The notes beneath the pieces are model-generated. The model was not told where the DNA came from, did no database searches, and saw only the letters and a list, made by a program, of their open reading frames with translations. Below, piece after piece: positions 6,391 to 28,522 of a stretch of DNA of 64,000 bases. Numbering within the stretch: position 1 is the first letter of the stretch; each line of letters starts with the position of its first letter. Source of the stretch: Deltaproteobacteria bacterium (lineage in GTDB: Bacteria; Myxococcota; Myxococcia; SLRQ01). The translations under genes and the position numbers were made by a program. The stretch lies in NCBI GenBank assembly GCA_029210625.1, contig JARGFU010000002.1:124001-188000 (forward strand), read 5' to 3'.

Positions 6391-6888
6391 ATGCGAACCC
6401 CCCCTGCGGTCCTCGTCCTCGCGTCCTCTCTCTCCCTCCTCGCCGGCTGCGCCGCGCCGCAGATCGGGGTGATGCACTTCGCCGAAGGTCAGGTGCAGCA
6501 CGCCATCCACGCCGGGGACATCGCCTGGAAGCCCTGCCCTCCGGGCCTGCCCGAGGGCTGCGGCATGGCCGTCCTCGAGGGCGACCCCCGGGGCGAGGGC
6601 CTCTTCACCGCCCGCTTCCGTGGTGACGGCAGCAACACCGCCGTCGTCCCCGCCCACTGGCACCCCAAGGACGAGCGGGTGACCATCCTCGAGGGCAAGG
6701 CCTACGTCGCCTTCGGCGAGGGCGCCACCCGCGAGGACGCCACCGAGTTCGGCCCCGGCGACTACTACGTGAACAAGCGCCACGCCATCCACACCGTCTG
6801 GATCGACGGCGACTGCGTCCTGCAGATCACCGGCCTCGGCCCCTGGAAGGCCGTGCCCATCAGCCAGCAGGCGCCTCCGACTCCCTAG
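6391..6888 (+). CDS. Cupin-domain lipoprotein
   Basis: 165 residues. The chosen ATG opens a clean lipoprotein signal (MRTPPAVLVLASSLSLLAGC) with lipobox LAGC; upstream in-frame Mets would give a charged, non-signal N-terminus. The mature part carries a cupin_2-like barrel: AHWHPKDERVTILEGKAYVAFGE, then FGPGDYYVNKRHAIHTVW, including the two metal-site His of HWH and the later H of KRHAIH. Related proteins are metal-binding and of uncertain enzymatic role. It converges on the lipoprotein at 6,885-7,514, the stop codons overlapping. Confidence 0.82.
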   Translation: MRTPPAVLVLASSLSLLAGCAAPQIGVMHFAEGQVQHAIHAGDIAWKPCPPGLPEGCGMAVLEGDPRGEGLFTARFRGDGSNTAVVPAHWHPKDERVTILEGKAYVAFGEGATREDATEFGPGDYYVNKRHAIHTVWIDGDCVLQITGLGPWKAVPISQQAPPTP

Positions 6889-7514
6889 GGGGACTCGAAG
6901 CTCTCCACGTCCCGGGTCCACCGCTCGACCGGCCCGGGGGCGGGTGGACCGGGCTGGAGCAGGGGCTCGGCGCTCAAAGGCCGCACCGGCTCCTCCGGCT
7001 CGGGCTCGTCGAAGCAGTGGCCCGGCAGGGGCGCGGCCCCCTCGAGGCTCTCCTCGAGCGGCGCCAGGGCGACCCGGCCGAAGTCCATCCTGTCCCGGTC
7101 GGGAGGAGGCGCGCCAGGGGGCCAGTCGCGGGGATGGTGGGAGCAGACCACCGAGCGCAGCGCGTACGCCGGGTGGTGGAAGCGCAGGGTCTTCATCGGC
7201 GGGAAGTGCTCGGCGATGAGCACGTGCACCCACTGGCGCTCGTAGGTCGGCGGCGTGTCGAAGCGCCCCTCGGCGTCGCTGCGCAGCGCCCGGCCCCCGG
7301 ACCAGGCGGTCTCCTCCACCACGACCCCCTCGATCGGCTCCCCCGAGCGGGCGTCCAGCACGGAGCCATGCAGTCCCATCGAGGTCCGCACCTGCATGGG
7401 GCAGATGCAGCAGCCCGTCGCCGAGACCGCGAGGAGAAGGAGCAGCACCGCGCTGGTCAAGACCCGGATCACCCCCCGAGTCCGCCACGAGCGTGTCTTG
7501 CAGGCAAGCTGCAT
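6885..7514 (-). CDS. Lipoprotein with carboxypeptidase-regulatory-like domain
   Basis: About 209 residues from the ATG at 7,514 (a GTG about 45 bases downstream, just before the hydrophobic stretch, is an alternative start). The signal peptide is VLTSAVLLLLLAVSATGC with lipobox ATGC. The next segment (GLHGSVLDARSGEPIEGVVVEE, SDAEGRFDTP) is the typical beta-sandwich of carboxypeptidase-regulatory or CNA-B-like domains. A Pro/Glu-rich tail follows. It is probably an outer-membrane or periplasmic lipoprotein of unknown role. It is the last chromosomal gene before the mobile element. In the uninserted chromosome its promoter would have lain just downstream of tRNA-Arg. Confidence 0.72.
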   Translation of the reverse strand: MQLACKTRSWRTRGVIRVLTSAVLLLLLAVSATGCCICPMQVRTSMGLHGSVLDARSGEPIEGVVVEETAWSGGRALRSDAEGRFDTPPTYERQWVHVLIAEHFPPMKTLRFHHPAYALRSVVCSHHPRDWPPGAPPPDRDRMDFGRVALAPLEESLEGAAPLPGHCFDEPEPEEPVRPLSAEPLLQPGPPAPGPVERWTRDVESFESP

Positions 7515-7674
7515 GCGCGATTCAGAGGGGCCTGTCGCGCGCCCGGAGGGTTCGACTCCGCACGGCGCGAAGCGCCGCCTACCGGCAGAGGGCGGAGAAG
7601 CCGCCTTTCCATGCGGAGCGAGTCCCGATGCCGAGGGAGATGCCTGGGAACCCGTCGATCCTGGAAGTACATCT

Positions 7675-7721
7675 GCGCGCCCGGAGGGACTCGAACCCCC
7701 GACCCTCGGATCCGAAGTCCG
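7675..7721 (+). repeat. attL: 47-bp direct repeat, displaced tRNA-Arg 3' half
   Basis: Identical to 28,448-28,494. It begins gcgcgcccggaggg and ends ccgaagtccg. It covers the anticodon arm, variable loop, T arm and acceptor 3' strand of tRNA-Arg on the minus strand. This is the original chromosomal 3' half, cut off from its 5' half by integration. The flank beyond it (t at 7,674, c at 7,673) means this ancestral copy reads CAG, not CCA, after the discriminator. Confidence 0.95.
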
Positions 7722-7876
7722 GTTCCAGTGGTGCAACGTCTTGGAATTGCTGTCCTGAGTGTGCCGAACGATGCAGGAGATTGCACGGGAATGCAGGGGG
7801 TTCTGGTGAGCCCCCGGCACAGGCAACCGGCACAGACGGTACCGTGAGGCGGAAGAGCGGGGGAGGGCGCAAGTGA
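7722..7876 (+). other. Alternative integrase 3' end used only in the circular form
   Basis: This looks intergenic in the integrated state (7,515-7,872 contains no gene apart from attL). Joining attR to attL by excision places it directly after integrase codon 394. The frame stays open for 51 codons from 7,721 (GSSGATSWNCC, ending RRKSGGGRK) and stops at TGA 7,874-7,876, overlapping the GTG start of the next gene as GTGA. It also holds the left arm-type repeat. Nothing else is seen in 7,515-7,674. Confidence 0.7.
7815..7835 (+). promoter_or_regulatory. Left arm-type integrase-binding repeat (putative)
   Basis: Two copies of CGGCACAG with 13-bp periodicity (7,815-7,822 and 7,828-7,835), separated by GCAAC. 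The same arrangement, differing at two spacer bases, lies near the other end at 28,369-28,389. Matching repeats flanking the core on both arms are typical of tyrosine-integrase attP sites. Confidence 0.7.
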
Positions 7877-8160
7877 CGAGTGACACGCCAGCCCACACCT
7901 GCCACCGCTGCCAGGCTCCCCTCCCCCTCACCAAGGCGGGACGACCCCGCCAGGGCGCCAGGTTTTGCTGCACGGCCTGCCGCCAGACCCACCACACCAA
8001 GCGCCGTCGCCGAGCCCGTCAGCGCCTGCCAGAGGCCCTGGCCTCCCTCGACGCCAGCCTGCGGGAGGTCAGGGAGCTGCTGGCCGTCCTGGGGCAGCCT
8101 GGCGGTCTGGGGGAGGTGGAGGACGGGAAGACGTCCGGCGAGGGGCCTGTGGAGCGCTAG
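7873..8160 (+). CDS. Small Cys-rich zinc-finger-like protein
   Basis: 95 residues from GTG. A CHRC pair near residue 10 and a CCTAC segment near residue 32 could form one zinc-binding site. A basic stretch (HHTKRRRRARQR) and a predicted amphipathic helix (LASLDASLREVRELLAVL) follow. The start codon overlaps the stop of the extended integrase frame in the circular form, which argues that this is a real gene and part of an int operon before integration. Possible roles are a recombination directionality factor or a regulator. No family is recognised. Confidence 0.65.
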   Translation: MTSDTPAHTCHRCQAPLPLTKAGRPRQGARFCCTACRQTHHTKRRRRARQRLPEALASLDASLREVRELLAVLGQPGGLGEVEDGKTSGEGPVER

Positions 8161-8161
8161 G

Positions 8162-8177
8162 AGGCGTGCTGCACGCC
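8162..8177. repeat. Short inverted repeat after the zinc-finger gene
   Basis: GGCGTGC and GCACGCC separated by one base, just past the stop of the 7,873 gene. No T-tract follows, so terminator function is uncertain. It lies between convergent genes. Confidence 0.35.
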
Positions 8178-8280
8178 TTCGGAGCCCGGTTGGCTGTCGG
8201 CGGTCCACCAACAGGACCTGGACGGTAGACGGAGGGTAGACGACCTCAGGGCTCCAGCAGAAGAAGTTGCTCCCCTACCA

Positions 8281-9921
8281 CTAGGGCTCGCGCCCCCCCG
8301 CTGCCAGGTCACAGACCTCTCTGAGTATCTCGCGGGCTATTTCCGGAATCGCTTGCTCGTCGATCCTCTCTGCAAGGACAGCTGCCATTCGAGGCTTGCT
8401 GCCCTCTCCGACCTCCGCCTGGATCGACTCCATCAGTTCGCGCTGACCTGCTGACACCATCAACTCCTCAAACTCCGCTCCCCAGTACCTGAATCGGTCC
8501 AGGTACTGCTGCGGAGCGCCGCCTCCTTCTTGGTCGCGCTGACAGAGGTAGGGGATTTGGAGGCCCTCCAGAAACCTGATCCACGGAGCGTAGTTCGACT
8601 GCCCAGACACATCGATCACGCTCACACCTGCGGCATCCAGGTCCATGCCGATTCTAGGGGCGATACCGCAGAGGAAAGCTGTCTCTGTTGGGCCCTCTAC
8701 CAGAAGAGCCGCGCGCGCAAACGGAAGTTCTCGGTAGCGAGGATCGGCGAAGCGACGCTCGAACATGACTTGCTCCCCAGGCGTCTCCGGCACTAGGGCT
8801 CGGCAAATGCTGGACCCCTCGACGCTTGGAGCGATTCGATACAGGAAGCGCAAACTGGATTCCTCTATCAACCCAGGATCGTGCGTTATTAGAAGCACTT
8901 GGTTCCGCTCCGCTGCATCCCTGATGGTGCGACGCAAGCGACGCTGTGCCTGCGGATGCAGGTGCAAACCAGGCTCCTCAAGCACCAGCACTTTCCCTTC
9001 ATGGTGTGCCAGGTTGGCCAGAATCGTCAGCACCTCGACCACGCCCATGCCGATTCTCTGGTGAGGAATCGGCGTTTCGCTGCCAGCCCGATAGAACATC
9101 AGCTGGGCAGGGGTCCCCTGTGACCCCATGGTTTCAAACTGCAGATCGGGAAAGAAGTGCGAGAACTCTTTCTCCACCGCTTCTAGGCGCTGTCGCCCTG
9201 GGCGCAAACCATTTGCAAGGTTGTACAGAAGGGTGGCCAGGGCGCCCCCGTCGAGGGCATCCCGTACACCTTTCCCATCGTCAACAGCCACCGTTTCGGG
9301 GCGTTTTCGGATCTCCCCCAGCACCACAAACGCGTTCATGAGAACACCGTTCAGCCACTGTCGAGGATCTTGACCCAGAGCGAAGGCCCCACTGGAGGCC
9401 CTCAGGTCCTCAGCAGAATCCGTCCGACGAAAGGCCTTCGCGAGGTGTACGGTATCTGCAACCGCTTCTCCCCCGTTGAACCGGATGGCCGTTCGACCCA
9501 AGTATACGTGGTACCCGTCACTATGGCGTATCCTGATCTCCGACTCATTGGTCTTGGGCGGGAAGACGGCTTCACCACAGAACATCCCCGAGAACTTTGA
9601 GCTAATCTCCTCGGCCAACGGCCGGCCAGACTTGCGCTCCACCGCCGCAACCTGCCTCCACATCTCCATGCGGATCGTGCTGTCATCCTCTTCGTCGAAC
9701 TCGATCTCCACCAGAACCTCTGCTTCTCGGTCTGGACGGAATCGCTCCGCCTGTGGAGGCAGGTATTGGCTGGTCCTCGTAGCCGCCTGCAGAGCCGCGA
9801 TGATAGATGATTTTCCAGCGTTGTTTTCGCCGAGGATCTGCGTCAAACCCGCAGAAAGCTCGATCTCCTGCCTCTCCCGGTAGCACCGGTAGTTGTCAAA
9901 AATGATCTTGCGGACCCTCAT
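8281..9921 (-). CDS. OLD-family ATPase/TOPRIM nuclease
   Basis: 546 residues. The N-terminal ABC-type ATPase has Walker A GENNAGKSS (about residues 32-40) and Walker B VLVLEEPGLHLHP (about 313-325), followed by LLITHD. The C-terminal TOPRIM-like domain begins AALLVEGPTETAFL and continues VIDVSG...IPYLCQRDQEG. The family DxD metal motif appears as QRDQ, so only one of the two aspartates is obvious and catalytic competence is uncertain. OLD proteins act in phage exclusion, alone or with a UvrD-like partner (Gabija). It lies 78 bases downstream of hsdS on the same strand and is probably the last gene of the restriction operon. Confidence 0.85.
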   Translation of the reverse strand: MRVRKIIFDNYRCYRERQEIELSAGLTQILGENNAGKSSIIAALQAATRTSQYLPPQAERFRPDREAEVLVEIEFDEEDDSTIRMEMWRQVAAVERKSGRPLAEEISSKFSGMFCGEAVFPPKTNESEIRIRHSDGYHVYLGRTAIRFNGGEAVADTVHLAKAFRRTDSAEDLRASSGAFALGQDPRQWLNGVLMNAFVVLGEIRKRPETVAVDDGKGVRDALDGGALATLLYNLANGLRPGRQRLEAVEKEFSHFFPDLQFETMGSQGTPAQLMFYRAGSETPIPHQRIGMGVVEVLTILANLAHHEGKVLVLEEPGLHLHPQAQRRLRRTIRDAAERNQVLLITHDPGLIEESSLRFLYRIAPSVEGSSICRALVPETPGEQVMFERRFADPRYRELPFARAALLVEGPTETAFLCGIAPRIGMDLDAAGVSVIDVSGQSNYAPWIRFLEGLQIPYLCQRDQEGGGAPQQYLDRFRYWGAEFEELMVSAGQRELMESIQAEVGEGSKPRMAAVLAERIDEQAIPEIAREILREVCDLAAGGREP

Positions 9922-9999
9922 TCGTCTCCTCCACGACCAGCCCTAGGTCCCAACGAAATCCTTCAAGGGCGGCAATTCGGCTGCGGCCAACTGGGTGAG

Positions 10000-12099
10000 C
10001 TACTGCCTCCCATTTCGCACTCTCCGTGCATCAAACCTTTCGACCTCGCCACGACGAATGGCGGAGTTGAGTGCACTCTTGAGAGCCTTCTGCGACGGTT
10101 GCGAAAGCCGAGCGAAGCCGAGGTGCTCGACCACCAGGCGGAAGACCTCTTCGCGCTCGTAGAGGCGCCCCTTGGACATCGCCGAGCCGATGGCTTTCCG
10201 CAGCACCTCTGGCTCCATGTCCGACAGCCGGGCCGCCGACAGGAAGTAGACGCCGTCTTCGCTCTCCAGGATTCCTCGACGGACGGCGGCACGAACGTGG
10301 CCGGATAGGGCCTTCTTGATGTTCTTGCCCAGGCGCAGGTAGCCGAGCGCATTGGCCAGGTCCCGCAGCAGATCGTCCCGCTCATGCCCTGCGCGGGTCG
10401 CGATCTTTCGGATGAGCGCCATCGCTGCGGCCTGGGTCAGCTCCTCAGGCGCCTGCTCAGGCGCCTTCGATGTCTTGGGCTTCCGCCTCGCAGTAGCCTT
10501 GCCCTTCTTCGGCTGGTCGGCGAAAGGCTCGGCTCGTGGCTCGGCCTTCGAGTTGCGCTTGCGCCGAGCATTCTTCTTCGGCGCCTGCGCCTCTCGCTCG
10601 GCCCTGATTCGTTCCAGCAGCACGCTGGCGGGCTCGTCGTTCGGGTCCTGGGGGACGAGTTCACCACGGAAGGCCTTAGCGAGAGTCGCCTGCTGGAGGT
10701 TTTCCAAGTCCCTATTGAGAGAGGCAGATCGCTCTTCTGCTATCTCAATGAACTCAAGCATGTCGTTGAGTTTCGTGACGAGCACTCGCTGTTCGGCGAT
10801 TGGAGCCAAAGGCATCGCGAGACGCTTGATCTTTCCCTGGAAGAGGTTGCTCTGCGCCGTCTGAGTCTTCGCTCGGTCCATCTGCGATTGGAGCACCGGT
10901 GCCCGAAAAGCCAGCGACTCGAAGTGGTCATCAACGAGAACCGGTCGAACTACAGCAACGCTCCGAACGAGCGAGAACCGTAGACCTTCGTCGACGGTGC
11001 AGGATCTACCCACAGTGCCCGAACAGGAAAGAAGAACGTCGCCTTTCTGAACCCTTAGACGCTTCGAAAGGAGGCGATGAGTCTCCTGCGAGATGTAATC
11101 TACTTTCGCGAGGCTCAAGTGCCCGTTTCGGACATTCCTGGCGGAGAGCAGAAACACGCCGCTTCCGGTTCGCTTCGGGGTGGCGTGTTCACCGTCAGTC
11201 ACGAAATCGCTGGTCTCCTCAACGCTTGCCCAGCACCACCCGTCCGGCAGCTCAGGCAGCCCCTCTCTATCGACGGGCTCCGGCTCCCGGTACTTCTTGG
11301 CTGCCTTGGCTCGTTCCTTCTCCAGCACGGCCGAATCGTCATCATCGGACCAGGGCTTCCGGGCGCTCCTTGCCTTGGCTTCGGCCTTGGCGCGGGCCTT
11401 CTCGGCGGCGTCTTCGATCCAGCGGGTGCGGCGCTCGGTGCGGATGCGCTTGAGCAGCTCGGAGGCAGGCTCGACGTCGGGGTTCTGGGCGCGCCAGGCC
11501 TTCGTCAGGTCGCCGCGAAAGGCTGCGGCCAGGACCGACTGGCGGAATTTCTCCAGCAGCGGCGGGATGGCGTCGAGTGCCTCTTTGGCGGCCTCGGAGC
11601 GAATCTGTAGGGACTCGATCTTGGCGACGATGCGCTTCTGCTCGTTGAGGGGGGCGACTGGCACCAACTTCGTTGCGAGCGCCTTCTGATTAATCTTCGG
11701 CAGGACTGTACGGCCCTGGCTCCTTGAGACCTGGGCGGTGAACATTGACGAAATCAACCACTGATGGAGAAACACCGCTTCGATGTAGCCCCTAACCGGG
11801 TACATGTCGGCGCTGCACAGACCCTCGAAGTTCGCCAGGACCGCCTTGGCCAGATAGGGCCGGATCTTCGAGTAGAGGATCTGCCCGGCGTGAAACCTGT
11901 GCTTCGGGCTGGTTACGCCATCCTCAGCAACCGTTCGGTAGGGCAAAAGCCTGCCAGTGCCCGACTCGATGTGGTTCGGCGCAATATGCGGCTTCTCCGG
12001 ATGGCCGGAAGGATCAACCAGATCGGACTCCACCGCCGCCACATCCGCGAATGCTGCCCAGTTCCACGACCCAGGTAGAGAGTGGTGCTCATCGCTCAT
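10000..12099 (-). CDS. hsdS: Type I restriction specificity subunit HsdS with extra C-terminal domain
   Basis: 699 residues, against about 400-600 for usual HsdS. Two half-subunits are visible: TRD1 (about 1-145) with conserved helix PLNEQKRIVAKIESL, and TRD2 (about 300-440) with PIAEQRVLVTKLNDM. Each half ends in a matching segment (AAFRGDLTKAWRAQNPDVEPAS and AFRGELVPQDPNDEPAS). It selects the DNA target for HsdM and HsdR. Residues about 515-565 form a Lys/Arg/Ala/Pro linker. The last about 135 residues hold a domain with three helix-plus-wing-like segments (VRAAVRRGILES, IGSAMSKGRLYE, LNSAIRRGEVER) that is not part of standard HsdS. The ATG overlaps the hsdM stop (ATGA). Confidence 0.93.
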   Translation of the reverse strand: MSDEHHSLPGSWNWAAFADVAAVESDLVDPSGHPEKPHIAPNHIESGTGRLLPYRTVAEDGVTSPKHRFHAGQILYSKIRPYLAKAVLANFEGLCSADMYPVRGYIEAVFLHQWLISSMFTAQVSRSQGRTVLPKINQKALATKLVPVAPLNEQKRIVAKIESLQIRSEAAKEALDAIPPLLEKFRQSVLAAAFRGDLTKAWRAQNPDVEPASELLKRIRTERRTRWIEDAAEKARAKAEAKARSARKPWSDDDDSAVLEKERAKAAKKYREPEPVDREGLPELPDGWCWASVEETSDFVTDGEHATPKRTGSGVFLLSARNVRNGHLSLAKVDYISQETHRLLSKRLRVQKGDVLLSCSGTVGRSCTVDEGLRFSLVRSVAVVRPVLVDDHFESLAFRAPVLQSQMDRAKTQTAQSNLFQGKIKRLAMPLAPIAEQRVLVTKLNDMLEFIEIAEERSASLNRDLENLQQATLAKAFRGELVPQDPNDEPASVLLERIRAEREAQAPKKNARRKRNSKAEPRAEPFADQPKKGKATARRKPKTSKAPEQAPEELTQAAAMALIRKIATRAGHERDDLLRDLANALGYLRLGKNIKKALSGHVRAAVRRGILESEDGVYFLSAARLSDMEPEVLRKAIGSAMSKGRLYEREEVFRLVVEHLGFARLSQPSQKALKSALNSAIRRGEVERFDARRVRNGRQ

Positions 12100-13550
12100 T
12101 CAGCGACCTCAGCCGTGACTCCATTCCCATTCGGATCGAGCATCTCCATGAGCGCCTGCATCTCCTCGGTCGCGGTCTGCAGGTGCACGAGGATCTCGGC
12201 GGCGACCTCGTCGGGCTCGGGCAGGTCCTCGGCCCGATCTACCGACTCGTCCCGCAGCCAGGTGATATCGAGATTGTCGCCGCGCTTGGCGATGAACTCC
12301 CGGTCGAACTTCCGGAAGCGCCCTTCCTCGCCCTCGTCTTTGCGCTTCGAGCCGCCATTCGGGTCCTTGCCGTAGGCATCGACGAAGGGCTGCAGGTGCT
12401 CCCTCGTGAAGGGCGTGCGCTTGCCGAAGGAGGGCATGTTCGCGCGCAGGTCGTAGATCCACACCGCCTTGGTGTTGCCGGTGTCCTTCTTCTCGCCCCG
12501 CTGAAGGAAGAGCACGTTGGTCTTCACACCCTGGGCGTAGAAGATGCCGGTCGGTAGCCGCAGGATCGTGTGCAGGTTGCACTTGTCCATCAGGTCCGAG
12601 CGGATCTGCTGGCCGGTCTTGTCCTCGAAGAGCACGTTGTCCGGAAGCACCACGGCGGCCCGGCCGCCCGGCTTCAGGTTCCGATAGATGTGCTGCAGGA
12701 ATGCCAGCTGTTTGTTGCTGGTCGGGAAGGTGAAGTCGTCCCGGGTGGGCTTGCCGCCGCCCTTCTTGGTGCCAAAGGGAGGGTTCGTCAGGATGACGTC
12801 CGACCTCGGTACGCCGGAGCCGAGGGGAGAGAGCGAGTCCCCGAGCAGGATGTCGCAGTCGATGTCGTGCAGCAGCGCGTTCATCAGCGCGAGACGCTGC
12901 GTGTCGGGGACTAGCTCGATGGCGTAGTAAGCCTCCTTGCGCTGGAAGACCTGCTCGGCCTCCGAGAGGTCGAAGAGATCGTCCGTGGCCGCCTTGACGT
13001 GCCGGTCGGCGGCGATGATGAAGCCCAGGGTTCCGGCCGCCGGGTCCGAGACTCTCTCGCTCGCCTGGGGCTTGATGATGTCCACCATCGCCTCGATGAG
13101 CGGCCGGGGCGTGAAGTACTGGCCCGCCCCGGACTTCTTCTCGTTCGCGTTTTTTTCCAGCAGACCCTCGTAGAGGTCGCCGAGGCCCTCCTGGCGGGCG
13201 CTGTACCAGTCGAGAGAGTCGATGCTGCTGACGAGCTTGGCGAGGTTTCGCGGCTGGCGCAGGGAGGTGTTGGCGTTCGCGTAGATCGCCTGGATCTTGC
13301 CGCTCACCTCCGTGCCCAGGTGGATGAGCAGCTCACGGTAGAAGGTCAGCTGCTCGGTGCCGTCCTTCGAGATCAGGTCACTCCAACGCCAGCCCTTGGG
13401 CAGGCTCTTCTCGGTGCCCGTCTCCTGGGCCATCTTGAGGAAGAGCAGGTAGGTCAGTTCGGTGACGTACTCGTGGTAGGTGATGCCGTCGTCGCGCAGC
13501 ACATGGCAGAGATTCCAGAGCTTCGCGACGATGTCGTGCGTGTTGGTCAT
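12096..13550 (-). CDS. hsdM: Type I DNA methyltransferase subunit HsdM
   Basis: 484 residues, starting MTNTHDIVAKLWNLCHVL. The ATG at 13,550 overlaps the hsdR stop (ATGA), so it is preferred to an ATG five codons upstream. The N-terminal helical bundle is followed by an N6-adenine methyltransferase domain: AdoMet-binding DPAAGTLGFII and catalytic ILTNPPFG (the NPPF motif). It protects host DNA and is required for target recognition by the complex. The C-terminus is acidic. Operon order is hsdR-hsdM-hsdS, all with 4-base overlaps. Confidence 0.96.
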   Translation of the reverse strand: MTNTHDIVAKLWNLCHVLRDDGITYHEYVTELTYLLFLKMAQETGTEKSLPKGWRWSDLISKDGTEQLTFYRELLIHLGTEVSGKIQAIYANANTSLRQPRNLAKLVSSIDSLDWYSARQEGLGDLYEGLLEKNANEKKSGAGQYFTPRPLIEAMVDIIKPQASERVSDPAAGTLGFIIAADRHVKAATDDLFDLSEAEQVFQRKEAYYAIELVPDTQRLALMNALLHDIDCDILLGDSLSPLGSGVPRSDVILTNPPFGTKKGGGKPTRDDFTFPTSNKQLAFLQHIYRNLKPGGRAAVVLPDNVLFEDKTGQQIRSDLMDKCNLHTILRLPTGIFYAQGVKTNVLFLQRGEKKDTGNTKAVWIYDLRANMPSFGKRTPFTREHLQPFVDAYGKDPNGGSKRKDEGEEGRFRKFDREFIAKRGDNLDITWLRDESVDRAEDLPEPDEVAAEILVHLQTATEEMQALMEMLDPNGNGVTAEVAE

Positions 13551-16500
13551 GCTGCGTCTTTCCAAACTTCTTCCTGGAGGTCGCCGAGCAGCTGCTCGAG
13601 TTTTCCTCCGAACACCTTGTTCATGCGGGCGAAGCCGCCCTGGGCCTTGAACTGGCCCCGGTCGAGGGCCTCACGGTCCACGATGGTCTCGACCTTCAGT
13701 TGCTTGCCGATGCGTTCCAGCCACTTCTTCTGTGGCGGCGTCCACTGCTGCATCGCCATGATCTTCTGCAGGGCCCGGTCCACCCGCTGCTCGTAGGGCA
13801 CCAGAGGTGAGCCAATGGCCTGCTGCCGGATGAAGCCGATGATCGAAGCCGCGATGTCTTGGTTCTTCACCTGTGAGTACGCTGTCCGCAGCTTCGTCTC
13901 GCTGTAGCCAGCCTCGTCGAGCTTGAGCTTCAGCTCGCGCAGCTGCTGCCGGGTGAGGTCGCGAGGCCGCTGGGTGACGACCTTCAGCGCCTCGATGGCG
14001 TTCGCGTTCTCCTCGATGTAGGCCCGGAAGCCATCGAGGTAGTCCTCCGGCTTCGCGTTGCCTTCGCCGTAGCCTCGCCCCGTCTCGATCAGCTCGTCAT
14101 CGTGGTCGGAGTAGAGGACGTTCCGTCCGCTGCTGGTCTTGAACTTGTCGAGGAAGGCCGCGACACCTTGGTGCTCCTCGAAAAAGGCCACGACCTCGGC
14201 CACATCGCCGGTCTGGAGCAGCTTGCTCACCTCCGCCGGATCGGCGCCCGCCAGCGTCTCGAAGGACTCCAGGTGCTTGCCCTTGATGCGGCCCTTCTTG
14301 GCCTGGAGCTTGGCGGTGATCTCGTCGATCACGCCCTTCTTGTGCCCCTCGTCCTCGACCGTCACCAGCTCCTCGACCAGCTGCTCGAAGGTGATGTGCG
14401 GACGGGTCACCACCGGCTTCATCGAGGTGTAGGGCTCCAGCGCCGAATACAGGTCCACGGCGTCGTAGATGCGGAAGACCTCCTTGCCGATGTCGGGGCA
14501 CAGCCGGGTCGCTCGCCCCATCATCTGCTCGTAGAGAATGCGGCTCTTCACCCGCCGGATGAACACGAGGTTCGTGATCTCGGGGACGTCGATGCCGGTG
14601 GTCAGGAGGTCCACGGTCACGGCGACCTTGGGCAGCCGCTCGTTCTTGTAGCGGCGGATCTTGTCCAGGGGCTTGTCCGCCGCCCCGGTGATCTTCTGTA
14701 CCGCGTCGTCCTCGACCTCGCCGTAGGCCTCGGTGAAGGCCTCCTTGAGCAGGTCCACCACCATGTCCGCGTGGGCGTCTGTAGCGCAGAAGATCATGGT
14801 CTTTCCGTCGAGCGACGGGTCGATCTGCTCGGCCAGGACCTCGCAGACGACCCGGTTGAAGCTCTCGGTGACGACCTTCGTGTTGAAGCCCTCGACCTCG
14901 ATGTCGATCTCATCGGGGGTGTTGAACATCTGCAGCTGGCCCGAGGCCGTGTTGTAGACGCCGACCTCCTCACCGGTCTTCCAGTGGATGCCCTCCTGGC
15001 CGAGCTTCGTGACGATGCGGATGGGCGGCTCGTGGTCCACGAGGTAGCCATCGATCACCGCCTGCCGGTAGCCGTACTCGAAGATGGGCTTGCCGAAGAT
15101 CTCGGTCGTGTGCAGGGCTGGCGTGGCGGTGAGCCCGATGCGGATCGAGTCGAAGTGGTCGAGCACCCTGCGGTACTTGCTGATGTACTCGGCCTCCGAG
15201 CGGAACTCGATCTCCGAGTCCGACATCTCCCGGTCGAGGTTGTAGCCCCGGTGGCACTCGTCCACGACGATGCAGTCGTACCAGTCCACCGGCACTGCCT
15301 CAGCGTCGTCCGAGGCGTACATCAGCCGCTTCACCATGCCCTGCACGGTGGCGACGTGGAGACGGGTGTCGGGCTCGGGCTTCAGGTCACCCAGCCCCTT
15401 CACGTCGTAGATCTCGGTGAGGCTCTGGAGGTTCTCCAGGCGCACGTCCTTGAAGGCATTCTCGGCCTGCTCCCCGAGGGCCGAACGATCCACGAGGAAG
15501 AGCACGCGGCGGAAGCGCCCGGCCTTCAGCAGCCGGTAGATGAGGCAGAGCGCCGTCCGGGTCTTGCCCGTGCCGGTTGCCATCGCGACCAGCATGTCCT
15601 GCTGGCCCTTCGCGATGGCCTGCTCGACGCTCGCCAGGGCGTCGTGCTGGTAGTCGCGGAGCGGCAGGTAGTCGGAGGGCTCGGTCTTCAGCTTGTCGTC
15701 GGCCTTCCCGTGGTCCTGGCCGAGCAGGTCGATGAGACCCTGCGGCGTGTACCAGCCTTCGAGTGGGCGAGGATGGTTCGTGGAGCGCCGGGCATCGAGG
15801 TACCAGATCCCGCTCTTCGTCTTGAGTTGCCGGAGGAAAGGCCGTCCGTTCGTGGCGAAGAGGAAGGGGATGACGTAGTCGCCCCAGGGCGAGCCCTCGG
15901 GCACATGCTCCTCGGTGGCCTTGTAGTCGCGGCTGTAGCGCTTCGCCTGCTCGATGGCGCCCGCCACGTCCTTGCGCTTGCGCTTGGCCTCGACCACAGC
16001 CACGGGGGTCAGGCCCACGAAAAGCACGTAGTCGGCGGGACCGGAGGCCGTCGGCCACTCGGCAATCGCCATGTTGCGACCCTTCGCCGGGCGGGCGCCT
16101 GCCTTGTAGGCAAGTGCGACGGTGTCGGCCTCCCAGCCTGCCTCTCGCAGCTGCTCGTCGATGAGCAGCCGGGTCTCGGACTCATCGAGATCGAGGTCGT
16201 CAGCGGCCTCCTGGGCCTGCTGGATGGCCGCCTGCACCGTCGCCCTGGGGGCAGCGGCGGTCTCGGCCTGGAGGGCCTCCATCTGCTGCGCGTGCTCGGC
16301 GTGCATCGCCGTGGCCCGCCCCTCGGCCTCGCCCGCAAGCTCAAGGGCGGCGGCGGCCTCTTCATAGGCAAACCGGGCGCGCTCCTCGGCCTCGACTCGC
16401 AGCTTCGCCTCCTGCGCAGCCGTCGCCTTCAACTTCGCGAGCTTCGCCTGCTGCTCGACCTCGCGCTGGCGCATCTCGGCAAGCTCGGCCTTCAGTGCGT

Positions 16501-16969
16501 TTCCGGCCTGGACCGGGTCGGGCGGCGGCACGAAGGGCCCCGACTTGAAGGCCTTGCTCTTGAACGCCCGCTGGAACCACACGCCGAGGCGCCAGGCCAG
16601 GCGTAGCTGGTGCAGAGCCTCCCGCTGTGTGCCCTCGACGTCGTGCACGGCCCGATTCCCGGCCTTTCGCAGCGAGTGGAAGAGGTCGCCGACCTCATGG
16701 TCTGTCACGCCGGAGTCTCGCAGCCGTCGCAGGAGGTCGATCTGCGCCTCCTCCGACGACGTGTAGATGCCTGTGCGTGCTGCGGCCTCACGAGCGAGCA
16801 CCTCGCCGAGTTGCCGAAGCTTGATCAGGGCGACGCCAGGGTCCTCGAAGACGTAGCGCTCAGCACGGGCTCCTAGCTCGGCGAGCAGCGGATCGACGGC
16901 CGCAAGATGGCCGAAGTTCGGCGACGCCTTCGCTCCGGTCCCCGGTGCTTTGCCGCCCTGCCCCGCCAT
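13547..16969 (-). CDS. hsdR: Type I restriction endonuclease subunit HsdR (EcoEI-like)
   Basis: 1,140 residues. The first about 110 residues resemble a DUF4145-type helical domain. A coiled coil rich in Ala, Glu and Gln follows to about residue 260. The nuclease domain shows ADYVLFVGLTPVAVVEAKRK, the D...EAK active site. The SF2 motor has motif I MATGTGKTRTA, motif II VVDECHRGY, motif III GLTATPA and motif VI MMGRATRLCPD. The end matches the EcoEI-type R-subunit C-terminal domain. It translocates and cuts unmodified DNA with HsdM2-HsdS. It is the first gene of the leftward defence operon, divergent from the HTH gene at 17,180. Confidence 0.96.
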   Translation of the reverse strand: MAGQGGKAPGTGAKASPNFGHLAAVDPLLAELGARAERYVFEDPGVALIKLRQLGEVLAREAAARTGIYTSSEEAQIDLLRRLRDSGVTDHEVGDLFHSLRKAGNRAVHDVEGTQREALHQLRLAWRLGVWFQRAFKSKAFKSGPFVPPPDPVQAGNALKAELAEMRQREVEQQAKLAKLKATAAQEAKLRVEAEERARFAYEEAAAALELAGEAEGRATAMHAEHAQQMEALQAETAAAPRATVQAAIQQAQEAADDLDLDESETRLLIDEQLREAGWEADTVALAYKAGARPAKGRNMAIAEWPTASGPADYVLFVGLTPVAVVEAKRKRKDVAGAIEQAKRYSRDYKATEEHVPEGSPWGDYVIPFLFATNGRPFLRQLKTKSGIWYLDARRSTNHPRPLEGWYTPQGLIDLLGQDHGKADDKLKTEPSDYLPLRDYQHDALASVEQAIAKGQQDMLVAMATGTGKTRTALCLIYRLLKAGRFRRVLFLVDRSALGEQAENAFKDVRLENLQSLTEIYDVKGLGDLKPEPDTRLHVATVQGMVKRLMYASDDAEAVPVDWYDCIVVDECHRGYNLDREMSDSEIEFRSEAEYISKYRRVLDHFDSIRIGLTATPALHTTEIFGKPIFEYGYRQAVIDGYLVDHEPPIRIVTKLGQEGIHWKTGEEVGVYNTASGQLQMFNTPDEIDIEVEGFNTKVVTESFNRVVCEVLAEQIDPSLDGKTMIFCATDAHADMVVDLLKEAFTEAYGEVEDDAVQKITGAADKPLDKIRRYKNERLPKVAVTVDLLTTGIDVPEITNLVFIRRVKSRILYEQMMGRATRLCPDIGKEVFRIYDAVDLYSALEPYTSMKPVVTRPHITFEQLVEELVTVEDEGHKKGVIDEITAKLQAKKGRIKGKHLESFETLAGADPAEVSKLLQTGDVAEVVAFFEEHQGVAAFLDKFKTSSGRNVLYSDHDDELIETGRGYGEGNAKPEDYLDGFRAYIEENANAIEALKVVTQRPRDLTRQQLRELKLKLDEAGYSETKLRTAYSQVKNQDIAASIIGFIRQQAIGSPLVPYEQRVDRALQKIMAMQQWTPPQKKWLERIGKQLKVETIVDREALDRGQFKAQGGFARMNKVFGGKLEQLLGDLQEEVWKDAA

Positions 16970-19252: not shown

Positions 19253-20767
19253 CTACGGCCTCTCCAATCCGATCTCGTCTTCGATCATCGCCAGGTTCGA
19301 CGTCACTTCCTCCATCGTCCCGTCTAGATCATGCGCCTGTTGCAACAACTCCCGCGCCTCTCCAAGACGCCCATCCATCCTGTGCCGAAGCGCCTTCAGG
19401 TTAAGGACAGCTGCACGCTGCTTCGGGGTGAGATCCGCTGCGAGGATCGCCCTCACCTCGCTGTCTACCATCTGAAATTCGCCAGCGCGGAACAACAGAC
19501 AGGAATAGTAGATGCGAAGATCCATCCCGCCAGCGACCAGCTTTCCACGCTCGATGCTCTCACCCGCCGTAACTCGAAATATCGGGGCAACGGACTCCGC
19601 CGTGAATAGCGGTTGTTCCATCCTTACTGCGGCCACCTTAACCCCGTAAGCGACCAGCTCGATCTCCATGCCGTCTACAACATGAAGGTCACTCCCCTCG
19701 TCGATATCGAGCCCGTACATCAGCAGCACCTGATGAAGGAGGTGCTGACTGTTGTGTCTCCTGGCCATCTCCATTTGCCCAATTTCCGAACCATGCGCAT
19801 TCGCGGCCCTATAGATAGACCGCGCCTCCTCCTCGAACAGCAGGTGGTTTGCGGCGCGCGGAGACACCCTAGCAAGGCGCCTGAAAAGCCGCCCCAACTT
19901 TTCATCAGGGTCGCAATGAAAGTGGGCGCTCACTAAGTTCATGAGATGGCGCTCGGTACCGCGCGCGAAGTAGTCAGATAGAAGGAGAGGCTTCTCCTTT
20001 CCCGCACTTAGCATTCGGTCACAAATCGTGAGAAACGCCAGTTCGGTTTCGGCAAGACTCGCGGAGCCGCCTGATAGATCTAGCAGACCTCTCCGCGCCA
20101 GTTCTTCTGCCGTGGCGTCTACTTCTTCCTTTTCAGACGACAAATTCTCGGCAAGCTCACCGAGCCCTACAACGCCGCCATTCAGCATCGCGTATAGCAG
20201 CGCATCGCCGGCCTCTGGAATGGCCGAAAACGACGTGCCCTGCCCCTGCAGCAGCTTGTGCACCTCACCGGAGTGAATAAGCGAAGCCAGGTCATTCTCG
20301 ATTCGTTCCCCGAGATTCCTCGCGCTGGTGAACTCCTGAAATAGGCTAGTGCCGGACACAGAAGCACGAAACTCAAGCACAGCCGCGAGCTGCTCGTCTG
20401 GGTCTTCGACCTCGCTGTTTGGAAGCCGCTTGAAGTAGAGCTTGATTGCCGGCCCTCCCCCACCGTCAAACCTCTCCTTCGCAATCCCATACTCCTCGGC
20501 CGTTCCCGATGCCGCTACTCCGTTTGGTGTTCCAAACCGACGCCCCATTAGACCGATAAAGACATCGGCTTGCTCCACGGCCGGGTTGATCAACTCCTGG
20601 GTTCGCTCTGCCGTGCCAGCAGGTAGATCTTCCCACCCAATCGGCTCGAACAGCACATCATTTGCGGTCGCCAGGAGCTCGTTGATGCGACGCACCGCCC
20701 GCTTTGCTGCCCGCCTCTCTGAATGCAGATCGCCCGGTGAGGCGATGAAGACCTTGATCACTTGCAT
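19253..20767 (-). CDS. DUF4062 (TIR-like) protein with winged-helix and TPR-like C-terminus
   Basis: 504 residues. The N-terminal about 115 residues match the DUF4062 pattern: KVFIASPGDLHSERRAAKRAV, then QADVFIGLMGRRFGTP and SGTAEEYGIAKERF, the last with a conserved Glu pair in the position where TIR-like enzymes place the catalytic Glu. A possible winged helix (ENLSSEKEEVDATAEELARRGLL) is near residue 215. The C-terminus has a TPR-like helix pair (VLNLKALRHRMDGRLGEARELLQQAHDLD). DUF4062 occurs in prokaryotic conflict systems, and NAD-cleaving activity is only inference. It follows the second DUF4062 gene by 26 bases on the same strand, so they form a pair. Lower GC than flanks. Confidence 0.85.
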   Translation of the reverse strand: MQVIKVFIASPGDLHSERRAAKRAVRRINELLATANDVLFEPIGWEDLPAGTAERTQELINPAVEQADVFIGLMGRRFGTPNGVAASGTAEEYGIAKERFDGGGGPAIKLYFKRLPNSEVEDPDEQLAAVLEFRASVSGTSLFQEFTSARNLGERIENDLASLIHSGEVHKLLQGQGTSFSAIPEAGDALLYAMLNGGVVGLGELAENLSSEKEEVDATAEELARRGLLDLSGGSASLAETELAFLTICDRMLSAGKEKPLLLSDYFARGTERHLMNLVSAHFHCDPDEKLGRLFRRLARVSPRAANHLLFEEEARSIYRAANAHGSEIGQMEMARRHNSQHLLHQVLLMYGLDIDEGSDLHVVDGMEIELVAYGVKVAAVRMEQPLFTAESVAPIFRVTAGESIERGKLVAGGMDLRIYYSCLLFRAGEFQMVDSEVRAILAADLTPKQRAAVLNLKALRHRMDGRLGEARELLQQAHDLDGTMEEVTSNLAMIEDEIGLERP

Positions 20768-20793
20768 CCGTTCCCAACCTCCCGGTACGTGCC

Positions 20794-21831
20794 CTAGGCG
20801 TAGAGGACCATGTCGGCAGCCTGAAATAGCTTCAATCCCTCTTTCCCGTGCCGCGCCGCCAATGAGGAGGCATACATCGCCAACGCTCCAGCGATCGCCC
20901 CATCGTCGTCGTCCTCAAACCCGATCCAAGCCAAAACAACTTCAGAGTATTCGTCGGCCTCATATCCTCCAACAACGCCAAATGACGCGAGCCGTTTGAA
21001 TACCCTAGTCCCACGGCCCCTGCTCCACGCCCACATCTTTAGCGTTTCTTCATCCATTTCGACGCGCTCCCCGTTCAGTGCGCCGTAGCGACCAAACACC
21101 CAAAGCGCCTTCACTAGCTCCTGCTTGCTTGTTGCTTCTGACTCAATGATCCGAGAGAGCAGCCCATGCAACTTCTTCAAGCCCTCAGTGACCCACGCCT
21201 CTTCCTTCGGCTCAGCCTTGATCTCATCTGGAAGCGACAGGAGCTTTCCTGGAAAAGGAATGACATCGCCCATCTCTTCGCTAGAGCCTCCCGACGGGTT
21301 CTTGGCTCTGACGATTCCCTCCGAGAAGAGATATACAATATGCGCAAACTGGGCAGTAAGTTCATGGCAAACATCTCCTCCGTTCTCGAACGGCCATATC
21401 CAGTTCGACTCGGAGGCAGAATGCACAAGGTCAATGAAATCAAAGACCCGCACATCCTCAACCATGCTCGACACGTTTGCCTTTGCGCTGTCGCGGTAGA
21501 TCTTCTTTGCTGTTTGAACTTCTTTTTTTACGAAGGTGAATATTGGAATTCTCCGTCTAGCTGCTCTCGTGTACTCCTCGTTCGTAATTGAGTTCTCGTT
21601 CCCAATATAGGTGCCGCCCCTTCGGCCACCGATGATCAAGACTAGGTAGTCGGACCGGTCAACCTCATCGAGGCATGCGTTGTGGGAATGTGAAACCGGA
21701 GCCACACCAAATCCCGGGTGATCGGAGGCCACAACATCCATCCCGAGATCTTCTAGATGGCGCCGAACCACATCTCGAACCTCTGACAAATCGAAGCAAG
21801 TCGAACTCAGGAAGATCCTCGGCTTTGTCAC
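20794..21831 (-). CDS. Second DUF4062 (TIR-like) protein
   Basis: 345 residues. It begins PRIFLSSTCFDLSEVRDVVRRHLEDLGMDVV, the classic DUF4062 first strand and helix, then RSDYLVLIIGGRRGGTYIGNENSITNEEYTRA with the conserved Glu pair. It belongs to a different DUF4062 subtype from its neighbour (SST-type here, ASPGD-type there). Residues about 160-345 are unrecognised and mostly helical, with no membrane segment. It is the upstream gene of the two-gene unit. Base composition is visibly lower in GC than the element ends, which suggests separate acquisition. It is probably one half of a defence or toxin module; partner roles are unknown. Confidence 0.85.
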   Translation of the reverse strand: MTKPRIFLSSTCFDLSEVRDVVRRHLEDLGMDVVASDHPGFGVAPVSHSHNACLDEVDRSDYLVLIIGGRRGGTYIGNENSITNEEYTRAARRRIPIFTFVKKEVQTAKKIYRDSAKANVSSMVEDVRVFDFIDLVHSASESNWIWPFENGGDVCHELTAQFAHIVYLFSEGIVRAKNPSGGSSEEMGDVIPFPGKLLSLPDEIKAEPKEEAWVTEGLKKLHGLLSRIIESEATSKQELVKALWVFGRYGALNGERVEMDEETLKMWAWSRGRGTRVFKRLASFGVVGGYEADEYSEVVLAWIGFEDDDDGAIAGALAMYASSLAARHGKEGLKLFQAADMVLYA

Positions 21832-23204: not shown

Positions 23205-24866
23205 ATGTCTGTTTCGAACAATAGCACTGCCTGCACGAACGTGCAGCCCCTCGCATTCCTGGATGCCCTCTTCGAGGACCTCGACGGAGTCATCGAGGTG
23301 CGCATCCTCGGTGACTCCGCAGGTGCGGTTGTCCACCGCCGCTGGTTCGACAGCGCGGAAGACCTGGTAGAGGACCTGCCCGCGCTCACCGCGATGGCCG
23401 AGAGCGCCGGCGCCGGGATCTTCTTCGGCGTCCTGCCTCGCGGTGGTACCAACCAGAGTCGCGCCGAGCACGCCCTGCCCGGCCGTGTGGTGTGGGCCGA
23501 CCTCGACTTCGACAAGTACGAGGGTGGCGAGGAGGAGGCGCGTGTGCGTCTGCACCAAGTTCCCTACCATCCTGTCGCCCGTGTGCACTCTGGTCACGGC
23601 CTCCACGCCTACTGGCTTCTCAACGAGACTCGGTCGCCGGAAGAACTGGTCGCGTTCTCCCAGACGATCCGTCGCATCCTGGGCAGCGACGCCGTTGCCG
23701 ATGCGGCCCGCATCATGCGCCTGCCGGGCAGCGTGAACCGCAAGGATCCGGACAACCCCGTCGAGACGCACATCGAGATTTTCGAGTCGTACCAGCACTT
23801 CAATCCCGAGGAGTTCCGCGAGGCGCTGGAGGAGACCGCGCCCATGGCCTCCGAGCGGCCCCAGCACACCAGCTCTCCCCCGCCTCCGGTGGAATACGAT
23901 GACGAGCTCCCCGCCGAGGTCGCCCGGCTCATGGTCGAGGACAACAAGCTGCGCAACCTCTTCCGTGGTCGCGGCAAGACCGGGCGGGACCGGCAGGGCA
24001 ACCCGCTCGACGAGTCCAGCTCTGGCTACGACTTCAGCCTGGCTCTGCACCTCATCGAGGCCGGTATCACCGAGCCCCTGGCAATCGGGACGACCATCGC
24101 GTGTCGGCCCGACGGTGCGGCCTTGGCCAAGGGTGATCGCTACATCGCTCGGACCGTGGCCCGTGCTCTGGAGGCCGCCACCGCCGCCGAGGAGGACGAT
24201 GCGGACGTCGAGGTCGATGCCGTCACGATCTACGAGTCGGACCCGGTGGTCGTCCTGTTCGAGGTCGAGGGTCGGACCTTCGAGGTCAACGCGTCGCAGC
24301 TCGCCACTCCGACGAAGTTCCGGGAGCGCTTCATCAACGCGGTCCACCGTGTGCCGACCTTGCAGAAAGGGCACGCCTGGACCGAGTGGGTGAACAGCGT
24401 CCTCGAGAATGCCGAGCGCGTCGAGCAGCCGCCGGAGGCTTCGACCGAGGCGGCCTTGCGCGAGGCGGTCCAGGACTTCATCAGCGGCCTGCCTGATTCG
24501 GACGAGCCTACGGCCTTGGACTCGCGGATCTACAGCCAGGACCGCGAGCAGTTCATCAGCCTCAAGATCGTGTTGGACGGCGTCAAGGAGGACCACGACG
24601 TCACGCGCACTACGCTCGCCGCGACGATGCGCGGCCTCGGCCACACCGGTGGCCACCGGATCCGCGTGGAGGTCGAGGGTCAGCGCACCCGCCAGGTCCG
24701 CGCCTGGCGCCTGGCGCCTGGCAGCAATCGCTCCGAAGCGACGGAGTCGCCCGAGCCGGTGACCGATGCCGGTGAGGAGCAGGAGGCGCAGCCGGACGAG
24801 GAGCAGGCCGACCAGGACGACTCCGAGGCGACGCCGAGCGACGGCACGGAGGCCGGTGACGCCTAG
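23205..24866 (+). CDS. RepB-like primase of the archaeo-eukaryotic primase superfamily
   Basis: 553 residues from ATG 23,205, with GGAGG 8 bases upstream. The primase core shows VVWADLDFDKYEGG (DxD metal site, about residue 90), then VHSGHGLHAYWLL (sxH nucleotide motif, about 131) and ARIMRLPGSVNRKDP, the RLPG-N-K segment typical of plasmid and phage RepB/primpol proteins. A middle region and a C-terminal part (VLDGVKEDHDVTRTTLAATMRGLGHTGGHRIR) may be a winged helix. The tail is acidic. It should prime replication of the excised element, with the helicase encoded 187 bases downstream. Confidence 0.85.
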   Translation: MSVSNNSTACTNVQPLAFLDALFEDLDGVIEVRILGDSAGAVVHRRWFDSAEDLVEDLPALTAMAESAGAGIFFGVLPRGGTNQSRAEHALPGRVVWADLDFDKYEGGEEEARVRLHQVPYHPVARVHSGHGLHAYWLLNETRSPEELVAFSQTIRRILGSDAVADAARIMRLPGSVNRKDPDNPVETHIEIFESYQHFNPEEFREALEETAPMASERPQHTSSPPPPVEYDDELPAEVARLMVEDNKLRNLFRGRGKTGRDRQGNPLDESSSGYDFSLALHLIEAGITEPLAIGTTIACRPDGAALAKGDRYIARTVARALEAATAAEEDDADVEVDAVTIYESDPVVVLFEVEGRTFEVNASQLATPTKFRERFINAVHRVPTLQKGHAWTEWVNSVLENAERVEQPPEASTEAALREAVQDFISGLPDSDEPTALDSRIYSQDREQFISLKIVLDGVKEDHDVTRTTLAATMRGLGHTGGHRIRVEVEGQRTRQVRAWRLAPGSNRSEATESPEPVTDAGEEQEAQPDEEQADQDDSEATPSDGTEAGDA

Positions 24867-24913
24867 ACACGCGCGTACGGGTTTTTTCAGTGCACTTCTT
24901 CTTCACCAAAAAT

Positions 24914-24944
24914 CAGGTGTCACAGCGTCACAGTGTCACACCTG
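24914..24944. repeat. Iteron-like site between primase and helicase
   Basis: Three tandem 8-bp units GTCACAGC, GTCACAGT, GTCACACC (24,919-24,942), enclosed by the inverted repeat CAGGTGT / ACACCTG (24,914-24,920 and 24,938-24,944). Candidate replication origin or operator for the flanking genes. Confidence 0.5.
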
Positions 24945-25053
24945 GCAGCATCTGCCGCCGGGGGGCGCGCGTGTGTGGGGTGATCTTCTTGCAGTTCGAA
25001 GACCATCGTGTGCGCGTGTGTTCTCCGGCGGCGCCATCTTCGGAGACCTGCTG

Positions 25054-26652
25054 ATGCCCATGCCGGCCCACACTACGGTCTTTCTCGGACCCCCGGGCAC
25101 AGGGAAGACCACCCGCCTGGTCGCCGTCGTGGCTGACCTGCAGCGGCGAGGTGTGCCCCTGGCCAGGACCGCCTTCCTGACCTTCACGGTGGCGGCCGCG
25201 AAGGAGGCTGTCGACCGGCTCAACCTTTGCGCAGCCGAGGAGGAGCCTCCGCCCTGGTTCTGCACGATCCACGCTGCCGCGAAACGCATTCTGAAGGTGC
25301 TTCACCCGGCCATCATGGACGCGGAGCAGTGGCTGGAGTTCGGGCACCTGCACGGCTACGAATTCACGCCCGGCATCTGGAGCAAGCGAGGTGTCGTTGA
25401 GGGTGGCAGTCGCCGCATGACCCGCCACGACGAGCTTCGCTACGTCTACGGGTGGGGTCGGGCACGAGGCCTGAATCTGCGGCGCTGCCTCGCGATCTGC
25501 CCCACCGTTGTCGATCGCTTCGACGCGGCCGTCTTCGCGCAGCGGGTCGAGCGGTTCAAGGCTGACCGCGACCTCGTCGACTTCCACGACCTGCTCTTTG
25601 ATGTGCTCGCCTCCGGCACGCAGCTGCCCGTCACTGCTCTCATCATCGACGAGGCACAGGACCTGTCGCCCCTCCAGGCGCAGGTCGTCGAGCAGTGGGC
25701 CGCCTGCTGCGAGGAGGTCTACGTCGCCGGCGACGACGACCAGGCCATCTTCGGCTTCCAGGGCGGCGACGCCTCCTGGCTGCGCCGGTGTGCAGAGGGC
25801 GGCCACGTGGAGGTCCTTGGGCAGTCCCACCGTGTGCCCCACGCCGCCCACCAGATCGCTGGACAGATCATTCGCAGCAATCGCACACGCATCCCCAAGC
25901 GCTATGAGCCTACAGACTCGCCCGGGACTGTCGAGGTCATGACCCTGGATGAGGCCCTCGGCAGCCTAGACGGCCAGCAGCCCACGCTCGTGCTGGCCCG
26001 CAACTGGCTCTTCCTCCGTGGTGCCGCGAAGCAGCTCATCGAGGGCGATGTGCCGTTCATCGGCGAGGGCACTGACATCTGGCCGAACCCGTTGGCGAAG
26101 ACCGGTCTCCTGCAGGCTCTGCGCGCGGCGACCGCCATCGTCTCGGGTACTGCCGTCGCTGCGGCCGACCTCGCCGCGCTCTCGCGGTGGCTGAAGGTGC
26201 CTGGTGGCTCAGGGCCCGGCAAGCGCACCCTTGGCGTTGTCTCGCCCGAGCGCGCTGGCGAGCTTCTCGGCCCCGGGCGGGTGTGCCAGCTGCGCGAGCA
26301 CGGTCCTGCCGTGGTGGCACAGGGCCTGCCCGACCGCGAGTACGCATACATCGGTCGGATGGTTGCCAAGTACGGCGAAGTGCCCGAGCCGTGCATCCGT
26401 CTGACCACCATTCACCAGGCCAAAGGCCGCGAGGCCCCGACCGTGGTCGTGCTATCCGACATGACACGCGCGTCCCACGATGAGTTGCTCGACACCCGGC
26501 ACGGCGGCAACGAGGCCGAGAATCGCGTGGCCTACGTCGCTGTGACCCGGACCAGTGACCGGCTCGTAATCGTTCGGCCGACCACGAGACGCTACTACCC
26601 ATACCCGGGTCTGGGCGGTAGCGGCGTGCAGCTGGGTAGGGCCCTGCCGTGA
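25054..26652 (+). CDS. UvrD-like SF1A DNA helicase
   Basis: 532 residues from ATG 25,054 (MPMPAHTTVFLGPPGTGKTTRLV); the long frame upstream runs through the primase 3' end and the iteron site and is not credible. Motifs: Walker A GPPGTGKTT, Ia TFLTFTVAAAKEAVDRL, II IIDEAQDLSPLQ, III VAGDDDQAIFGFQGGD, IV GQSHRVP, V TTIHQAKGREAPTVVVLSD, VI AYVAVTRTSDRLVI. At 532 residues it is shorter than UvrD/PcrA, mainly in the 2B region. It probably unwinds the element's DNA during replication or mobilisation. An OLD-UvrD defence pairing (Gabija-like) is less likely because the OLD gene is 15 kb away. Confidence 0.9.
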   Translation: MPMPAHTTVFLGPPGTGKTTRLVAVVADLQRRGVPLARTAFLTFTVAAAKEAVDRLNLCAAEEEPPPWFCTIHAAAKRILKVLHPAIMDAEQWLEFGHLHGYEFTPGIWSKRGVVEGGSRRMTRHDELRYVYGWGRARGLNLRRCLAICPTVVDRFDAAVFAQRVERFKADRDLVDFHDLLFDVLASGTQLPVTALIIDEAQDLSPLQAQVVEQWAACCEEVYVAGDDDQAIFGFQGGDASWLRRCAEGGHVEVLGQSHRVPHAAHQIAGQIIRSNRTRIPKRYEPTDSPGTVEVMTLDEALGSLDGQQPTLVLARNWLFLRGAAKQLIEGDVPFIGEGTDIWPNPLAKTGLLQALRAATAIVSGTAVAAADLAALSRWLKVPGGSGPGKRTLGVVSPERAGELLGPGRVCQLREHGPAVVAQGLPDREYAYIGRMVAKYGEVPEPCIRLTTIHQAKGREAPTVVVLSDMTRASHDELLDTRHGGNEAENRVAYVAVTRTSDRLVIVRPTTRRYYPYPGLGGSGVQLGRALP

Positions 26653-28511: not shown

Positions 28512-28522
28512 GCCACAGGCGC
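28446..28522 (-). tRNA. tRNA-Arg(UCG), integration target
   Basis: Cloverleaf: acceptor GCGCCTG with CGGGCGC (one G-U), D arm GCTC/GAGC-type, anticodon stem TCGGA/TCCGA with loop CTTCGGA giving anticodon TCG, T arm GGGGG-TTCGAGT-CCCTC. The discriminator G is at 28,449, followed by an encoded CCA (28,448-28,446). The 3' half from the anticodon arm on is supplied by the element; the displaced chromosomal copy at attL lacks the encoded CCA. It reads CGA (and probably other CGN) codons. Confidence 0.95.
28448..28494 (+). repeat. attR: 47-bp direct repeat within tRNA-Arg
   Basis: Identical to 7,675-7,721. The boundary at 28,494/28,495 is where element-derived sequence meets the original tRNA 5' half. 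Confidence 0.95.

Follow-up and report, generated by a model that had tools for sequence, protein, structure and literature searches.

The locus described here raises the question of whether the insertion of a mobile element into a tRNA gene can change the C-terminus of its own integrase and, in the same step, uncouple the integrase gene from the gene that follows it in the circular form. The coordinates given below are those of the window, that is, the whole stretch of 64,000 nucleotides that was analysed. We observed that a perfect 47-bp direct repeat (7675–7721 and 28448–28494) forms both ends of the element. The first copy, the attL core, is a displaced 3′ fragment of tRNA-Arg(TCG). The second copy, the attR core, lies within the complete tRNA-Arg(TCG) gene (28446–28522, minus strand), which is the target gene reconstituted by the element, and also within the frame of the integrase gene, int (27312–28511, plus strand), encoding a tyrosine recombinase (PF00589, E = 1.5e-12). 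The PF00589 domain, the end repeats, the tRNA restored at one end and the arm-type sites described below are the features of a tRNA element of the tyrosine-integrase type. As part of the overall explanation that we prefer, it is probable that this is an integrative element of ∼20.8 kb in tRNA-Arg, whose attP falls within the 3′ portion of the int that it carries. When an empty target site was looked for in the sole family relative, the matches were confined to the tRNA and its edges and are uninformative, and a tblastx comparison of the flanks returned low-complexity noise alone.

The interior of the element has defence-like cargo on the minus strand (8281–16969). It consists of the R (13547–16969), M (12096–13565) and S (10000–12099) genes of a type I restriction-modification system and, beside them, a gene for an OLD/GajA-like ATPase (8281–9921). 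A gene for a UvrD-type helicase with GajB-like matches (24766–26652) is on the opposite strand to the GajA-like gene and distant from it. Of two adjacent minus-strand genes (19253–21831), the one at 19253–20767 matches the PADLOC candidate PDC-S60 over the first 165 residues. Also inside the element, a gene for a serine recombinase with an HTH (PF00239; 17984–19115) adjoins a call resembling tRNA-Ala(AGC); this region may represent a scar or another mobile element.

In the integrated form, the int frame runs from ATG 27312 to TGA 28509–28511 and comprises 399 codons. Its stop codon is inside the reconstituted tRNA-Arg, and the last residues are encoded by the antisense tRNA. The catalytic domain corresponds to residues 180–334 of the 399 and remains intact after integration. 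If the element is joined at the repeat (28494 to 7722), the frame is kept across the predicted circular junction (...GTCCG followed directly by GTTCCAGTGG...) and int becomes 445 codons long, ending with TGA at 7874–7876. An example of a tail peptide in this frame is SGSSGATSWNCCPECAER. We recomputed the frame arithmetic of the original prediction, and the two lengths, the point of joining, the stop codon and its GTGA context all agreed with it. Its figure of 51 further codons holds when the codon split by the junction is counted, while only 50 lie wholly beyond the junction. The frames across the 47-bp repeat also bear out the claim that integration alters the Int C-terminus. The predicted exchange would be that of a 51-codon tail for 5 host-templated codons.

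Two other features are present around int. An ORF on the plus strand (27130–27510) overlaps the start of int in the same way as uoi, the excisionase gene, does in phage Mx8; it is without a Pfam match and may encode a directionality factor. A terminator-like hairpin for the tRNA (28418–28445, minus strand), supplied by the element, is inside int. Such a hairpin in the int frame directly before the core is seen both in the window and in Mx8 (L041, ∼6405–6440).

The segment into which the int frame extends in the circle (7722–7876, plus strand) is also the P′ arm of attP. A tandem pair, CGGCACAG-GCAAC-CGGCACAG, having a 13-bp spacing, resides in this tail (7815–7835, plus strand; 93 bp from the core), and a second pair of the same spacing, CGGCACAG-CAAAC-CGGCACAG, is on the int side, inside the int coding sequence (28369–28389, plus strand; 58 bp from the core). 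When as many as 2 mismatches are tolerated, the 21-bp pattern CGGCACAG-N5-CGGCACAG occurs at these two places only in the 6.1-Mb genome, one on each side of the core. From this layout, the pairs are most simply interpreted as the arm-type integrase sites of attP. As both pairs are in the extended int frame, the 3′ part of int and attP would be the same DNA. A search for the arm pair in IMG/VR gave two matches, neither with a matching int nearby, and we took these as chance.

The tail leads to a gene for a 95-residue zinc-finger protein (7873–8160, plus strand), and, as was predicted, the int frame of the circular form ends on the start of this gene, the stop and the GTG overlapping as GTGA. 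The zinc-finger frame, followed from its preceding stop (7807) to the first CxxC cysteine, has no start codon other than GTG 7873. As there is no alternative start to choose, the 4-nt overlap is firm. The two genes are co-directional and are adjacent in the circle only. In the circle, int would read through the attP core and the P′ arm, with its stop fused to the zinc-finger start, so that the two genes could be co-transcribed and translationally coupled. Integration would leave the zinc-finger gene at the end of the element opposite int, separated from the int transcript. The claim that integration also removes the second protein is unsupported, because the gene retains its own ribosome-binding site, a purine-rich GGGGGAGGG located 6–7 nt upstream of GTG 7873, which stays with it after integration. 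We also noted a palindrome-like GCGTGCTGCACGCC near the zinc-finger gene in three genomes (8164–8177 in the window, ∼1430–1445 in L032 and ∼190–202 in L048).

Adjacency of the co-directional int and zinc-finger genes in the circle alone would also be expected if the switch operated via transcription. In such a case, the circular junction would bring the zinc-finger gene under the int promoter, comparable with elements in which a new transcription unit arises on circularization, and the change to the Int tail would be incidental; given the ribosome-binding site of the zinc-finger gene, transcription could suffice. However, a plain promoter swap needs neither an open frame nor a GTGA overlap, and we regard this explanation as somewhat unlikely. 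A scan of 7400–8300 revealed no sigma-70-like site.

According to a paper of 2016, an att site located within the integrase gene that serves it was known from very few integrative elements (PMC4701971). In Mx8, attP is inside int, and integration makes a new 3′ end of int that changes its specificity (PMC6070905); 112 residues are swapped for 13, giving a less active integrase (PMC4701971). This int/attP switch was published in 1996 and 1999 (Tojo 1996; Magrini 1999; as cited in PMC6070905 and PMC4701971). The integrases of both Mx8 and SSV extend across attP (PMC4383910). In the phage record of Mx8 (AF396866), we found that int is a single frame across the site, and arm-like repeats are present on both sides of the core. 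Like Mx8, the window element has the tyrosine integrase of a myxobacterial element, an attP core within the int coding sequence and 3′ of the catalytic domain, a target at the 3′ end of a tRNA gene (tRNA-Arg) and a C-terminal tail that would be replaced. Unlike Mx8, its Int is outside the Mx8 clade (23% over 57 residues, E = 0.013), and its tail is non-homologous to that of Mx8, a WxxCxxC spacing being the sole resemblance. Also, the window int has a circular-form stop that overlaps the following gene, whereas 47 nt separate the end of the Mx8 int from p13.

Three other systems share parts of this arrangement. The streptococcal ICEs in rumA likewise have att inside the integrase gene, and their integration alters the length and the sequence of the integrase C-terminus, but they use a serine integrase and a protein-coding target, and the rumA protein is altered too (PMC4701971). 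The SSV-type archaeal suicidal integrases also have the target site inside the integrase gene and a tRNA target (PMC8371274). In these, integration splits and inactivates the integrase gene (PMC8371274), whereas in the window the catalytic part of int is not separated by integration and its domain stays intact. In mycobacteriophage BPs, attP is similarly in a coding gene whose protein has its C-terminus changed by integration; the altered gene is, however, that of the repressor, and the effect on immunity was tested (PMC4557955), while in the window the altered gene would be int. The principle is thus already known from phage Mx8 and is not new. Judged by the DNA sequence, the state-dependent C-terminus and adjacency in the window are real and match the known kind, Mx8.

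We surveyed 30 Mx8-type int loci from 195 genomes of the same phylum. The frame extends well beyond the catalytic domain in 26 of them. ARAGORN placed an antisense tRNA at the 3′ end of int in 18 loci, and the frame enters the tRNA in every one of these (18/18); two further Mx8-type int genes (G058:C56 and G067:C112) end short of the tRNA. In a different set of XerC-like Ints, seven have a tRNA close to the 3′ end of int, and in all seven the frame ends 16–90 nt short of it. Both att copies were found for 13 elements, and the joined int frame reopens in all 13, by 39–118 codons. In 10 of the 13 (9 without G007, whose ORF is doubtful), the stop is at −8 to +3 nt relative to the start of an ORF that follows, and six of these 10 junctions are ATGA or GTGA overlaps. 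Only one of the following ORFs has a Pfam match (DUF5681). The reality of these ORFs rests mostly on their length, and that of the zinc finger on homology.

The tails themselves are related at the protein level: identity is 61% over 111 codons for G024 and G015, 51% for G054 and G027, and 48% for the G028 pair, and the tails of G024 and G015 are 38–41% identical to that of Mx8. The dN/dS of the tails is <1 but exceeds that of the catalytic part; owing to saturation, little weight can be placed on it. Of the three frames that follow the core, that of int is the longest in 12 of 15 elements (the 13 Mx8-type ones, G159:C36 and the window element; P = 0.0003 against 1/3). Whether the extended frame is conserved among sibling elements had been set as a test beforehand, and it is conserved in Mx8-type and other elements. 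These data indicate that for Mx8-type integrases across the phylum an att inside int is the rule, the tails are conserved protein and the circular-form stop is often fused, as predicted from the joined frames, to the next start.

Neither the 195 genomes of the phylum nor IMG/VR yielded a close sibling of the window element. Close relatives of Int and of the zinc-finger protein were absent from the viral contigs, and in the genome contigs they were limited to the G159 record and one weak short match. The nearest relative of Int (32–34%) is that of G159:C36, an element in tRNA-Thr. Here, too, the int frame passes through the tRNA, and joining at the core GGCGACCTGCGGTTTACGAAACC adds 79 more codons; arm repeats (TTGCCAG...) are on both sides of the core, and no co-directional gene comes after the tail. 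The lack of close siblings is consistent with a defective remnant that no longer excises, which would have no circular form and for which the extended frame would be without consequence. Both 47-bp cores are perfect, and both arm pairs and the int frame are intact, which argues against this, and we consider a remnant improbable.

A different element, G028:C128, was reached via its zinc-finger homologue. It is a 9.3-kb element in tRNA-Lys, and its Int belongs to another clade than the window Int (43% to Mx8 Int, E = 8e-81). After joining, its int frame extends 80 codons beyond the 25-bp core, and its stop overlaps the start of the homologous zinc-finger gene, again as GTGA. A third zinc-finger homologue, in G089:C165, adjoins a fragment with a tRNA-Pro target core; the int of that element was not found. 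The homologues in G028:C128 and G089:C165 are both attP-proximal. For those in G074 and G139 no att site could be linked, and among phage and plasmid records no relative of the zinc finger was found. A 25-bp core, GAGTCGGGGAGACAGGATTTGAACC, from the 3′ end of tRNA-Pro is common to the int locus of G139:C309 (L073) and the zinc-finger end of the G089:C165 element (L032).

How much of this could arise by chance? In second-order Markov simulations of such GC-rich DNA, 51 open codons occurred with a probability of 0.39–0.52, and a fraction of 0.47 of random plus-strand positions in the element are open equally long. We therefore dropped the openness of the frame, at ∼0.5 by chance, as evidence. 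The G+C content at the three codon positions is 0.56/0.76/0.58 in the tail, compared with 0.74/0.51/0.77 in int and 0.75/0.59/0.86 in the zinc-finger gene, and is not coding-like in either half of the tail. The window tail has no significant homologue among the other tails or in the Mx8 tail. With these two properties, the tail is not supported as a selected 51-residue protein segment.

On these grounds, the extension could be a by-product. The catalytic domain would suffice, int would have lost its stop before attP, and the high G+C would leave the frame open through a non-coding attP arm until the zinc-finger start, with neither a selected tail nor a switch. Random frames that are open this long in about half of the trials, the codon-position G+C of the tail, its arm sites and its lack of a homologue all fit this. 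What it accounts for poorly is the exact GTGA on the only possible zinc-finger start, which is repeated in G028:C128, as well as the reopening of the Mx8-type joined frames and the conservation of their tails at the protein level. The chance that a fixed GTG meets an open, in-phase int frame and is followed by A is estimated as ∼3–5% (1/3 × 0.45 × 0.25). We find it unlikely that a by-product is the whole explanation. The window tail may be just an open linker through the attP arm, and the coupling to the zinc finger may be the part that is selected.

We therefore favour, as the probable explanation overall, an Mx8-like element with attP in int, a state-dependent Int tail and a coupling to the zinc-finger gene. 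The repeat, the frames, the overlap, the arm sites and the recurrence in siblings are present in the DNA. Excision, translation through attP, the coupling and any change in Int activity would be the steps by which they act. Beyond what was known from Mx8, the arrangement is seen with a different Int clade, has a stop that is predicted to be fused to the next gene, includes a zinc finger in two elements with unlike integrases and is widespread in the phylum.

A more specific reading, which we put forward tentatively as possible, is a state-locked two-part operon. Only the circle would allow int to be translated through attP and coupled to a conserved partner, the zinc-finger protein, which may be a factor for directionality or establishment. 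The arrangement would have arisen or been shuffled among at least two Int clades (those of the window and G028:C128), and integration would be the off-switch for both genes. If the working proposed here is true, integration would be a one-step, DNA-encoded switch that resets the type of the integrase together with the expression of the neighbouring gene; siblings are numerous and reside in different tRNA genes, which makes this switch testable.
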